From: Pseudanabaena sp. Chao 1811
GTDB taxonomy: Bacteria; Cyanobacteriota; Cyanobacteriia; Pseudanabaenales; Pseudanabaenaceae
Assembly (NCBI RefSeq): GCF_027942295.1
Contig: NZ_CP101416.1
Location: 1,962,001 to 2,026,000 of the forward strand
Reading direction: 5' to 3'
DNA length: 64,000 nt
Shown: piece by piece, positions 21,171 through 25,311 of the stretch
How the letters are laid out: each line of letters starts with the position of its first letter
Numbering within the stretch: the stretch's first letter is position 1
Made by a program: the position numbers and the translations under genes
The notes under the pieces: generated by a model
What the model was told of the DNA's origin: nothing
What the model saw: only the letters and a program-made list of their open reading frames with translations
Databases searched by the model: none

Positions 21171-21309
21171 GGTTAATGCATTATTGCCAATCACTGCATT
21201 TACGGTGCGATCGCCCAACATCACCTATAAAATCATCGTATTACTAGGATTTACTCACATTAGGCTATAAATAGATCATCAAAGCTAAATTTTCTAAGAT
21301 TTGCCTAGC

Positions 21310-23070
21310 ATGAGTAATTGCCTCTGTCTTGCTTGCGATCGCGCTAACCCTTTAACCACAAAATTCTGCACCCAATGCGGCGCTAAGTTACAAATTCAAG
21401 AGCGTTACCGCGCTTTGAAAGTAATTGGACAGGGTGGTTTTGGTAAGACTTTCTTGACTCAGGATGAGGGCAAGCCATCGCAGCCCCGTTGTGTGATTAA
21501 GCAATTTATTTATGAGGATCCTGCGACTTTGCGAGAGGCGCAAAGATTGTTTGAACAGGAGGCAGTGCGTTTAGATGATTTGGGTAAGCATAATCAAATT
21601 CCTGAATTATTAGCCCATTGTGAGCAGGATGGGCGGCAATATTTGGTACAGGAGTTTATCGATGGTGAGAATCTATTACAGGAGTTAAAGCGATCGGGGC
21701 GGTTTAGTGAGGCAAAAATTAAGGATTTATTGCTGGATCTGTTGCCTGTGTTGCAGTTTATCCATGCGGGTAATGTGATTCATCGCGATATTAAGCCAGA
21801 CAATATTATTAGAAGGCGATCGGATGGCAAGTTGGTTTTGGTGGATTTTGGGGCGGCGAAGGTGGCGACACAGACTTCGTTGCAAAGAACAGCGACAATA
21901 ATCGGTAGTCCAGAATATACGGCTCCTGAACAAGCAAGAAGGAAGCCTGTTTATGCCAGTGATATTTACTCTTTGGGGATGACTTGTCTTTATCTATTAA
22001 CTCAAATCCCTCCATTTGATTTGTTTAGTGATTCAGAAAATAAGTGGGTATGGCGACAGTTTCTTAATGGAATATTAGTTAGCAATAATTTGGGGCGTGT
22101 TTTAGATAAGATGATCGAGCCATTGCCAAGCAGATATCAGACGATTGAAGAAATCTTGCAAGATCTCAATCCTCCCAAAAAACCTCCAGCAATATCTACG
22201 CCAATTTCTTCGCCACCAGTTCCATCAGTAGCCACACCCCAAGCACCCAAACCGAGCTTCTTCTCAGGATTATTTTCGCAACCGTCACAGACTCCTGTAT
22301 CAACTTCGAGTAATTCTTCGATTTTGGATTGTGGAAATGGCGTGAAGTTGGAACTAGTGAAAGTGGCGGGTGGGAGTTTTAAGATGGGAAGTAATCGACA
22401 TGCTGGTGAAAAACCCGTTCATCGGGTGAATTTACGTGAGTTTCTCATTGGGAAATATGCTGTAACACAGGCGCAATATCAAGCGGTGATGGGAAATAAT
22501 CCCTCACACTTCAAAGGTGCTCAGAACCCTGTAGAACAAGTCAGTTGGCATGATGCGATCTCGTTCTGTGAGAAACTATCGCAAAAGTCTGGACAGAAAG
22601 TCAGATTGCCGACGGAAGCGGAATGGGAATATGCGGCGAGAGGTGGCAATCAAAGCAAAGGCTATAAATATGCGGGGAGTAATAATTTGAGTGATGTCGC
22701 ATGGTATCGCGAAAACTCTGGTCGTGAAACCCATCCTGTGGGTCAGAAAAAAGCCAATGAGCTTGGTATTTACGATATGAGTGGTAATATTCGGGAATGG
22801 TGCTTAGATGACTGGCACAATAGCTATCAATGCAAGCCCGATCGCTTAAAAAATAATGGTAACGAACCTTGGGGTGTAATGGACTTAAAAAGGAATGCTA
22901 ACGAACCTTGGCTTGGAAGGGTCTCGTGTGTGGGTGCTCTTCATCTTCGCCAGCTTCGCGGCGGTTCTTGGAGCTGTTTTGACTGTCGTGCTGCCCTTCG
23001 CTTAAGTTTCGACGCGCGTAATCAGACCTATTTTATTGGTTTTCGTCTACTTCTCGCTTCTTTTTCGTGA
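21310..23070 (+). CDS. Serine/threonine protein kinase with C-terminal FGE-sulfatase-like (C-type-lectin-fold) domain; possible DGR target
   Basis: 586 residues from the ATG at 21310 (a TTG nine bases earlier is unlikely). An N-terminal zinc ribbon (CLACDR...FCTQCGAKL) precedes a Hanks-type kinase (~33-280) with GQGGFGKTF, HRDIKPDNII and VDFGAAK. A Pro/Ser linker and an FGE-sulfatase-like domain (~345-586) with GGSFKMGS, PVEQVSWHDAISFC, RLPTEAEWEYAARGG and GNIREWC follow. The extreme C-terminus (LRGGSWSCFDCRAALRLSFD ... IGFRLL) has the layout of variable regions of diversity-generating retroelements, which often diversify exactly this domain architecture. Formylglycine-enzyme catalysis is not supported, because the CxxxxC active site is not conserved. 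A 39-bp-period duplication lies before it. Confidence 0.9.
   Translation: MSNCLCLACDRANPLTTKFCTQCGAKLQIQERYRALKVIGQGGFGKTFLTQDEGKPSQPRCVIKQFIYEDPATLREAQRLFEQEAVRLDDLGKHNQIPELLAHCEQDGRQYLVQEFIDGENLLQELKRSGRFSEAKIKDLLLDLLPVLQFIHAGNVIHRDIKPDNIIRRRSDGKLVLVDFGAAKVATQTSLQRTATIIGSPEYTAPEQARRKPVYASDIYSLGMTCLYLLTQIPPFDLFSDSENKWVWRQFLNGILVSNNLGRVLDKMIEPLPSRYQTIEEILQDLNPPKKPPAISTPISSPPVPSVATPQAPKPSFFSGLFSQPSQTPVSTSSNSSILDCGNGVKLELVKVAGGSFKMGSNRHAGEKPVHRVNLREFLIGKYAVTQAQYQAVMGNNPSHFKGAQNPVEQVSWHDAISFCEKLSQKSGQKVRLPTEAEWEYAARGGNQSKGYKYAGSNNLSDVAWYRENSGRETHPVGQKKANELGIYDMSGNIREWCLDDWHNSYQCKPDRLKNNGNEPWGVMDLKRNANEPWLGRVSCVGALHLRQLRGGSWSCFDCRAALRLSFDARNQTYFIGFRLLLASFS
22845..22911 (+). repeat. 39-bp-period internal duplication in the kinase-FGE gene
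   Basis: CTTAAAAAATAATGGTAACG (22845) and CTTAAAAAGGAATGCTAACG (22884), both continuing AACCTTGG, sit 39 bp apart. They encode LKNNGNEPW and LKRNANEPW, so the reading frame is preserved (13-residue unit). Confidence 0.85.
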
Positions 23071-23199
23071 GGACTTCAGCTACCCTCTTACCCTCTTTCC
23101 CTTTGTATTCCCCCATTTCGCCTTTGGCGATCAAATCTTGAACACAGATTAAACGGATTAAGGGATTTCACGGAAATAGGAATTGAGAAAACAATTGTA

Positions 23200-23266
23200 G
23201 GGGTTTAGCATTTGCGCCACAATTTATAAATTATCACCACAATCTTGATCCGCAAATGCTAAACCC
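23200..23266. repeat. Spaced inverted repeat
   Basis: Arms GGGGTTTAGCATTTGCG and CGCAAATGCTAAACCC separated by about 35 bp; lies downstream of the kinase-FGE gene. Confidence 0.75.
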
Positions 23267-23307
23267 TCTCCGCTTTCACAGATAAATTGTCCCTGCGGTT
23301 ACAGGTT

Positions 23308-23375
23308 GAGGGCATAGCATTCCCAAATCAAGGCAACCAGTAAACGTATAAATCTCTGCGGGAATGCTATGCCCC
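23308..23375. repeat. Spaced inverted repeat
   Basis: Arms GAGGGCATAGCATTCCC and GGGAATGCTATGCCCC separated by about 35 bp; same size and design as the neighbour at 23200 but a different arm sequence. Confidence 0.75.
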
Positions 23376-23643
23376 TACGCTTATCGCTTATACTTTTGCT
23401 AGAATTGCCACCAAAATAAACTTTTCCCCCTAACCATGATCGATCGCCTCGAATTCCCACTTGCCAAAGCACAATATCTGCTTAGCTATAGCGGTGAACA
23501 AGGTAAAGGCGGCGATAAAAGTCGATTTTGGCAAAGCGTAATGGGATATGACAGCGCCGAATCGATCCGTGACACAATTTTGCAAAAAGTTACACCACCA
23601 GACCTAGTATTTCAGTGTCAAGATGTTTATGGAGATAGATATA

Positions 23644-24756
23644 CCTTAACAGGGAATAGACTTAACATTTTTAAAAGACTGAAAGCGTAAAGTCAATAAA
23701 GAATCCAAAGCTGTTTTATGAGTAGTGTGGGATTGTGAAAGGCAAGAAGAAATAGCGAATTTGAAAGAAGAAAAATCAGGATAATAGACCGAGTAGAGAC
23801 ATTGCTTTTTGACAAATTTCCAAAGGCGCTCAATCAAGTTCAAGTTTGGGGAGTAAGTAGTCAAATATAGAAGTTCGATGTTTAATGACTGAGCCAACTC
23901 AAAAACTAAAGCACACTTTTGGTAACGAGCATTGTCCAAGACAAGAGTAATGGGTATAGTCAAGCCCAGAGCCGCAAGTTTATAAAGTAAGTCACAGATG
24001 GATTGAGCATTGATATAAGTGTCATTAGTCACGATAACTAGTTCATGAGTAACAGCATTAAGCGCACCCAGGACATTAAACCTTTGCCTTCCTGTCCCAG
24101 TTTTGACAAACAAGCGTTCAAAACACCACAAAAAGCCTAAATAAGCACCGAGGACAAAATGTGCCGCATCGACAAAGAAAACGGCTCTTTGACCAGATTT
24201 AGCTTCCTCTAAGCGTGGTTCTAGTTTTTTTTTAGAAATTCCTCTTGTGCTGCTGGGTCAGCCTTAGCAGGTATTAGCCCCACTCGACGACAACTCATTC
24301 CCATCGATTTCAAAAAATGACGCACCTGTTCTCGACTACGAACAATTCCTGTCAACTCGGCAATTGTTGCTGCTGCATGAGCCAGAGTTTTGGGTGGATG
24401 TTCTCGAAAATATATCTCTAAACTTTCCTGATGCTGTTTGAGTTCACTCTGGGGACGATTAAAGGTCAGTTCTTTGAGTTTGGTTATCCCACCTTCTTTA
24501 TAATCTCGTAAATAACTCAACAATGTCGGTTCAGTGATTCTTAGTAGTTTCGTGATTTCCTTGTGCGCGTATTTCTGGCTTTTTAGGTATAGTGCTTCCA
24601 TTTTTCGCTGTACTCGCGGATGCGGGTGATGGAATCTTTCGTGATGTAGGGCATCCATTTCTTCTTTGCTAAATGTTATTCGGATCATCTTGGAGAAAAG
24701 CTACTGTTTTTTCCATTTTTACCCTTTCAAAAAATAAAGTCTACATCCTGTCTAAG
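23644..24756 (-). mobile_element. IS630-family insertion sequence
   Basis: 1113 bp bounded by imperfect inverted repeats: CCTTAACAGGGAATAGACTT at the left end and, reading inward from the right, CTTAGACAGGATGTAGACTT. It is flanked by TA at 23642-23643 and 24757-24758, the target duplication expected for IS630/Tc1-mariner elements. Removing it restores a DUF6883 reading frame, which fixes the boundaries exactly. Confidence 0.92.
23646..24688 (-). CDS. IS630-family transposase, two frames joined by a predicted -1 frameshift
   Basis: The first frame (24688 to 24221, 155 residues) is the helix-turn-helix half (MIRITFSKEEMDALHHERFH, HKEITKLLRITEPTLLSYL). The second frame (ending 23646) is the DDE catalytic half: VFFVDAAHFVLGAY, LVLDNARYQKCA and NLIERLWKFVKKQ carry the D, D and E. 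The frames meet at a run of nine A on the coding strand (near 24225-24233), just before an in-frame TAG; a -1 slip there continues directly into KLEPRLEEAKSGQ. Programmed slippage at A-runs is known in this family. Both halves look intact, so the element may still be active. The stop codon lies inside the left terminal repeat. Confidence 0.9.
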
Positions 24757-24891: not shown

Positions 24892-25311
24892 ATGAGTAAG
24901 TTTCAAATGTTTGATTCCGTTACCTTAAATCAAGACATTCAGCTTCACTCTGGTGGAATTGCCCCACAAGGAACTGATGGTGCGATCGTGGAAATATTTA
25001 AAGATGGTGAAGCCTACCTAGTCGAACTATTTGGTGGATGGCTAAAACTAACACCTGAAGGCGATTTAATAGATACATCCCAAGACGATCCCGAAGCATT
25101 TCGCGACACCCTAGATGTAGAAACGCTCTATCCTCACCAAATAAATCCAATAAATGCTCATCAACAAAGCAATAAACAGAAAGTAAAGCAACAACTTTTA
25201 GCATTACTAGAACTACTTCCAGAAGAATCGATTCTGCAAGTTAAAGACTTCACAGAATTTCTTTGCTACAAACAACAAACTACATCAACTTCAGTAGTTT
25301 CCCAAAAATGA
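24892..25311 (+). CDS. DUF4926 domain protein
   Basis: 139 residues. The N-terminal ~65 residues (FDSVTLNQDIQLHSGGIAPQGTDGAIVEIF ... YLVELFGGW) form a small beta domain of DUF4926 type, which often lies beside DUF6883 or PIN-type genes. The C-terminal ~45 residues (KQQLLALLELLPEESILQVK) are helical and resemble DUF2281-like tails. The strong AGGAGG ribosome binding site is 8-9 bp upstream. The start codon overlaps the stop of the interrupted DUF6883 gene (AATGAGTAA), so the two were coupled. Function unknown; an antitoxin-like or immunity-type role is only a guess from the pairing. Confidence 0.8.
   Translation: MSKFQMFDSVTLNQDIQLHSGGIAPQGTDGAIVEIFKDGEAYLVELFGGWLKLTPEGDLIDTSQDDPEAFRDTLDVETLYPHQINPINAHQQSNKQKVKQQLLALLELLPEESILQVKDFTEFLCYKQQTTSTSVVSQK

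Follow-up and report, generated by a model that had tools for sequence, protein, structure and literature searches.

In Pseudanabaena sp. Chao 1811, a gene for a kinase-FGE protein has a 3′ end that a diversity-generating retroelement (DGR) very probably rewrote at some time in the past, and the variable region (VR) with which the gene now ends is probably an orphan, frozen DGR target whose cassette has been lost. The VR looks like a frozen leftover because neither mutator nor template was found on the chromosome. The window, by which we mean the whole stretch of 64,000 nucleotides that was analyzed, covers positions 1962001-2026000 of the single 4,729,581-base contig of its own genome (G000; 99.69% complete). 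The features relevant to this reading are listed below in window coordinates.

21301..23070, plus strand: kinase-FGE gene, an ORF of 589 aa, with a probable ATG at 21310
22351..23049, plus strand: FGE-sulfatase domain (C-type-lectin-like fold) by Pfam; best solved-structure sequence match 2y3c
22845..22922, plus strand: 39-nt in-frame tandem duplication, copies 79% identical, just 5′ of the VR
22954..23070, plus strand: candidate orphan DGR VR, stop codon included, with A-biased difference from the G001/G015 templates and low non-A divergence
23066..23077, plus strand: motif CGTGAGGACTTC, common to sister-genome VR 3′ ends
23078..23117, plus strand: C/T-rich tract between motif and hairpin, as behind sister VRs
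23118..23130, plus strand: hairpin TCGCC-TTT-GGCGA, identical 3′ of the G015 and G001 VRs

In the kinase-FGE protein, Pfam places a Pkinase domain at residues 36-286 and an FGE-sulfatase domain at residues 351-583, and the kinase motifs HRDIKPDN and DFG can be read in the translation. The top sequence match of the FGE domain in the PDB is 2y3c (E 2e-32), a Treponema denticola DGR variable protein, with which the VR part of the domain aligns weakly (1.5 bits). Like the VR of a DGR target, the VR is predicted to sit at the C-terminus of a C-type-lectin-like fold. The last 37 codons of the ORF read RGGSWSCFDCRAALRLSFDARNQTYFIGFRLLLASFS and are directly followed by the stop codon, and the protein ends in ...RQLRGGSWSCFDCRAALRLSFDARNQTYFIGFRLLLASFS*. 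The C-terminal layout given in the preliminary description, RGGSW-xxxxxC-..., is confirmed apart from the spacing of RGGSW and C, which is four residues rather than five. Behind the gene, at 23646-24688 on the minus strand, two ORFs encode DDE_3 and winged-HTH transposase halves, presumably of an IS630-like element.

The templates of the sister genomes G001 and G015 run in the same reading frame as the window VR and have asparagines at the variable sites (template repeat, TR, translations: G015, RGGSWNNNARNCRSANRNRNNARNQNNQIGFRVLLVSSS; G001, RGGSWNNNARNCRAANRNRNNALNQNNNIGFRVLLVSSS); the window VR is two codons shorter than either. No template from G000 itself being available for comparison, the VR was scored against templates of other species only, and on this footing it is changed at 17 of 28 A sites and 12 of 89 others with respect to the G001 template (Fisher 2.3e-6) and at 17 of 28 and 14 of 89, respectively, with respect to the G015 template (Fisher 9.2e-6). 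Within their own genomes, the VR and TR of G015 differ at 16 A sites and those of G001 at 19, each with 0/89 changes elsewhere up to the stop codon; the four non-A differences in each of these two pairs all lie past it. Eight in-genome VR/TR pairs have 0-1 non-A changes each. Judged by foreign templates only, the window VR thus appears to differ mainly at template adenines, as the VR of a DGR target does. When the TR region of G015 was used to query the whole of G000, the window VR was the sole clear match (E 5.8e-12; next match, E 2.8). Other FGE genes of G000 fit the genus templates poorly (L007, L008 and L010, with non-A changes of 25/79, 26/74 and 32/74) or weakly (L009, 16/74 to 18/74), L012 having been left out of the template scoring. 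In the best-template tables, each end is shown with whichever of the compared templates gave the lowest number of non-A changes; one such comparison had no G019 or G021 templates, and the VRs of these two genomes scored 21/79 to 24/87 there.

The 3′ flank of the window gene has the order TGAGGACTTC, pyrimidine tract, hairpin, and the same order is found, with variants of the motif, at all eight cassette VRs compared (G001, G003 twice, G006, G007, G011, G015 and G017). The motif behind these VRs is of the TGAGGACTT type (in G017, GAGGGCTT) and lies some bases past the stop in five of the eight; the pyrimidine tract comes next, and then a GC-rich hairpin whose loop has 3 bases. Where the window has CGTGAGGACTTC, the templates of G015 and G001 carry the IMH-like GTGAGTACT; TGAGTACT is present in these templates and the pyrimidine tract is absent. 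Across the window, the 19-base hairpin sequence has a single occurrence, with 0.03 expected at three or fewer mismatches. Because two AT-rich 5-bp stems turned up in the window stretch in the same hairpin scan, a stem of this length is weak evidence by itself, and the weight lies on the shared sequence. An IMH-type sequence and a hairpin thus appear to lie 3′ of the VR as they do in DGR targets, with a putative role in homing. Neither motif nor hairpin was found at the target left in the G000 cassette locus. A MITE-like repeat of ~190 bp at 23191-23385, 120 bp behind the VR, is present at that locus as well; it was rejected as a DGR-specific element, with 16 matches on the chromosome and orthologous copies in G002 and G004.

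The machinery that would be needed to rewrite the VR was not found on the contig. The RVT_1 profile, to which the 12 DGR reverse transcriptase (RT) loci of the genus score at least 68 bits, had no match in the G000 contig, and the G015 DGR RT as a query found no RT there, the same search returning those 12 loci in 11 of the 26 genomes. The window VR used as a query on G000 recovered itself and chance matches of 14-19 bases only, and the G015 TR alone, which has matches in 20 of the 26 genomes, matched only the window VR in G000. An Avd query had no match in G000, an empty result that is weak by itself; in tblastn the same Avd protein matched sister-locus Avd at 52-92% identity. None of RT, TR and Avd was found in the one-contig G000 assembly. 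The absence of RT and template from the window, noted in the preliminary description, extends to the whole contig, and its proposal that a template acts from elsewhere is not supported in G000. Since neither template nor RT was found on the contig, the case for present activity is refuted, on that description's own terms, as far as this assembly is concerned. A 19-aa match to the G015 RT beside the cassette-locus target, which might have been taken for an RT stump, was rejected because it corresponds to Uma2 upstream DNA: the 3′ end of the G015 RT gene is fused to the Uma2 upstream region, and in G001 and G008 Uma2 lies ~770 bp behind the RT. As for a phage source, three IMG/VR contigs encode RT relatives at 29-37% identity, none of them close.

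The main alternative is that the VR is an active remote target, rewritten in trans by an RT and template on a plasmid or second replicon outside the assembly. The 3′ signals of the window VR are intact, as such a target would need, plasmids of Fischerella, Anabaena, Nostoc, Microcystis and Acaryochloris carry close relatives of the G015 RT, 64-68% identical to it across 95-96% of the query, and the plasmid-free assembly could be a circularized metagenome contig. However, no DGR RT was found on the contig and cassette-locus parts are missing in both G000 and G025. In addition, the non-A divergence of the VR (12-14/89) exceeds that of the eight in-genome pairs, as if homing had stopped, although a diverged template of its own would match this observation too. 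We regard continued activity as improbable.

The reading of the VR as a frozen target is also informed by the locus at which relatives keep their cassette. In G015 and G001, target, TR, Avd and RT stand in a row upstream of Uma2 and radical-SAM/B12-binding genes. In G008, the contig starts ~200 bases before a TR-like copy, with Avd and RT next; this copy (L081:201-317), at the template position and with a template-type 3′ flank, differs from the G001 template at 10/28 A sites and 0/89 others, and may be a self-mutated template or the product of a chimeric contig. The region at 2.120-2.135 Mb of G000 aligns with the G015 cassette locus at 91-94% in the outer flanks on both sides and at 72-79%, in pieces, over the target and the stretch before it. 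At ~2.127 Mb, target and Uma2 are present in G000, and TR, Avd and RT are missing between them. Between G001 and G000, only the target and downstream flank align, and the far upstream flank does not. Because the G000 target is diverged and without the 3′ signals, we infer the former presence of a cassette in G000 itself from its neighbors.

The closest of these neighbors is G025, which is the sister of G000 (support 0.947) in a flank-gene tree of 22 of the 26 genomes, G003, G006, G007 and G011 being left out for their weaker flank matches. G001 and G008 branch outside the group of G015, G000 and G025, and in both of them this Uma2 gene is preceded by Avd and RT. The G025 locus has a target but no TR-Avd-RT. 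That target (L203) matches its G015 counterpart, a caspase-FGE gene, at 88% identity and is joined to ~149 bp of template 3′ flank, matching G008, G001 and G015 at 74-75% over 275-278 bp; this junction is likely a product of VR-TR recombination. G000 and G025 have in common a 363-bp junction of a repeat and the start of Uma2, 91% identical. Loss of the cassette in the G000/G025 lineage appears to be the simplest account of this arrangement, and horizontal gain of cassettes in other genomes instead is possible.

Orthologues of the window gene in G000, G002 and G004 share their downstream neighbors, a small gene (window 24892-25311) and the repeat, and a full-length DGR RT was found in none of the three genomes. 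G000 and G002 are 80% identical over the FGE body and 92% from the hairpin onward, with 48/95 identities in the block containing most of the VR, so the codon comparison among strains proposed in the preliminary description does place the variation locally in the VR, at the level of species and with one genome for each. The hairpin is broken in the G002 and G004 orthologues. The second copy of the duplication at 22845-22922 lies in a stretch that is largely gapped in these two orthologues, and the G021 orthologue has an in-frame TAA within its FGE domain (L126:4303-4305).

A concentration of differences between better conserved flanks, as seen between G000 and G002, would also be expected if the VR end had been acquired already diversified, through recombination with a DGR target carried by a related strain or by a paralogue, the gene itself never having been a homing target in this lineage. 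Such an origin could further account for the fact that G000 best fits the G001/G015 template type and the G004 orthologue a G003 template, and a plasmid-borne FGE gene of P. galeata has a similar end. Nevertheless, retrohoming is one known mechanism that produces the same pattern, and relatives have a template of this same type in their syntenic cassette; we therefore give recombination only a slight probability.

A bias toward template adenines was rejected as sufficient proof of DGR origin, since control FGE ends share it. The controls belong to one FGE gene family, from G004, G016 and G020, whose ends were taken as non-DGR because they are identical or nearly so in the three species. They too have an excess of changes at A sites (p 1.2e-2, 2.0e-2 and 3.4e-4), because the template Asn codons fall where the fold varies. 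The two kinds of end are separated by the other sites, at which the window VR has 11/87 changes (12.6%) versus 24/71, 25/82 and 26/77 in the controls (30-34%). Moreover, non-A identity rises from gene body to VR. For G001, it is 73/84 (87%) between VR and template versus 387/576 (67%) between body and target (p 8e-5), and for G015 the step is weaker, at 71/87 versus 383/549 (p 1.4e-2). No such step was found in six comparisons of the control family (p 0.14-0.33) or in four that involved two further FGE genes from G000 (p 0.46-0.74).

The step is present at the remote VR of G008, a genome with an RT (p 7e-3 and 4e-4), and at the orphan G016b (p 3e-7 and 4e-7); the remote VR of G019 has it against G001 only (p 0.024; against G015, p 0.23). 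It was not found at the orphan candidates G025, G016a and L085 of G000 (the cassette-locus gene), nor at the G002 and G004 orthologues against the G001/G015 templates. An earlier run covered the window VR, G025, L085 and G016a; the later run, with fixed domain limits and the controls, was made without G025, L085 and G016a. The evidence that discriminates is the low non-A divergence, the body-to-VR step and the common 3′ signals rather than the A excess, and with these added to the A-biased template differences the original suggestion that the C-terminus of the kinase-FGE protein resembles a DGR VR is borne out. That it is instead an ordinary FGE/C-type-lectin end, VR-like by common fold and never a DGR target, is very improbable: FGE domains are common (six matches in G000) and the control ends likewise differ most at template-A sites, but those ends have far more non-A change and no step, motif, tract and hairpin are common to VR genes, and the VR is the one clear template match in the genome.

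Across the 26 Pseudanabaena genomes, the 12 full or nearly full DGR RT loci include two in G003 and one in G021 whose match is without the first 33 residues. G005 has a 142-residue RT fragment (residues 205-346), and 14 genomes, G000 included, are without a DGR RT. A good template repeat lies near the truncated RT of G005 (L242), as in a decaying DGR. Sequences resembling the G015 template at E up to 0.001 were detected in 20 of the 26 genomes, including 9 of the 15 without a full-length RT, namely G000, G004, G005, G010, G013, G016, G020, G024 and G025. The copies are of uneven quality, with a non-A divergence from the best template that ranges from 5/88 (G020b) to 21/88 (G013a), and the genomes are mostly drafts, G024 being 76% complete. 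G013a has no A bias (9/29 A versus 21/88 other sites), and one template-like copy in G020 is frame-broken. G011, with an intact DGR elsewhere, has a short template scrap (L266) with the MITE-like repeat starting no more than 22 bases behind it.

The frozen state of the window VR probably arose as follows. In an ancestor, an Avd-RT complex would have made cDNA from a template RNA of the G001/G015 type, inserting random bases wherever the template has an adenine, and this cDNA would have replaced the 3′ end of the kinase-FGE gene, guided by TGAGGACTT, the pyrimidine tract and the hairpin. Later, template, Avd and RT would have been lost from the cassette locus (~2.127 Mb in G000) in the G000/G025 lineage. 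The ORF and homing signals would have remained, so that one fixed ligand-sensing kinase would now be made, with a binding face that is fixed because RT and template are absent. The lectin-like domain may bind a ligand and so gate the kinase, as hypothesized in passages of Vallota-Eastman et al. (2020; PMC7517822). With its signals intact, the window VR might be used again should a cassette return.

More speculatively, and with considerable doubt, targets in Pseudanabaena may generally outlive their mutator: cassettes would come and go, and dispersed sensor kinases and caspases would retain frozen VRs, in some cases together with homing signals that are still intact. Loss of the DGR would then fix the receptor repertoire, and a cassette regained, for example from a plasmid or a sister species, could restart the waiting targets. 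The genus offers a test ground for such questions: its sister genomes include some whose cassette is intact, some in which it is decaying and some without one, and their orphan VRs stand at conserved loci. A DGR survey that takes the RT as its starting point can miss targets in genomes that have none. Among the titles listed for the open-licence literature searched, none dealt with orphan VRs in RT-less genomes or with Pseudanabaena DGRs.

Among known systems, variable protein 1 of Treponema denticola (2y3c) resembles the window protein in being the top PDB match of its FGE domain, and differs from it in that it is not known to be fused to a kinase. The preliminary description rightly held that FGE/CLec C-termini fused to kinases are known DGR targets in cyanobacteria, where remote targets of kinase-CLec architecture were described by Vallota-Eastman et al. 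(2020; PMC7517822). As presented in passages of that paper, these targets similarly combine a kinase with a C-terminal CLec-type domain, a 3′-terminal VR and a distant RT; however, its 52 genomes have complete cassettes, with similar CLec proteins elsewhere too, whereas neither RT nor TR was found on the G000 chromosome. According to the same passages, all3226 of Nostoc PCC 7120 is likewise a paralogue with remnant TR-VR homology and no nearby RT, but PCC 7120 keeps two DGRs; none was found in G000, where the cassette locus is known by synteny. A degraded DGR cassette is mentioned there for Anabaena sp. 90. In Thiohalocapsa PB-PSB1, passages of PMC10907252 describe targets that have no complete cassette nearby, MITE-like repeats adjacent to degraded parts and degradation of DGR parts by MITE-like elements; that genome has nine DGR loci, for which action in trans was considered, in contrast to the G000 contig, on which no RT was found. 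Passages of these two papers and of PMC8144416 and PMC8867640 name neither orphan VRs of RT-less genomes nor Pseudanabaena DGRs. Kinase-lectin targets are thus already known, and what is added here is a chromosome on which no RT was found, together with an orphan target and a cassette locus, recognized by synteny, from which the cassette is missing.
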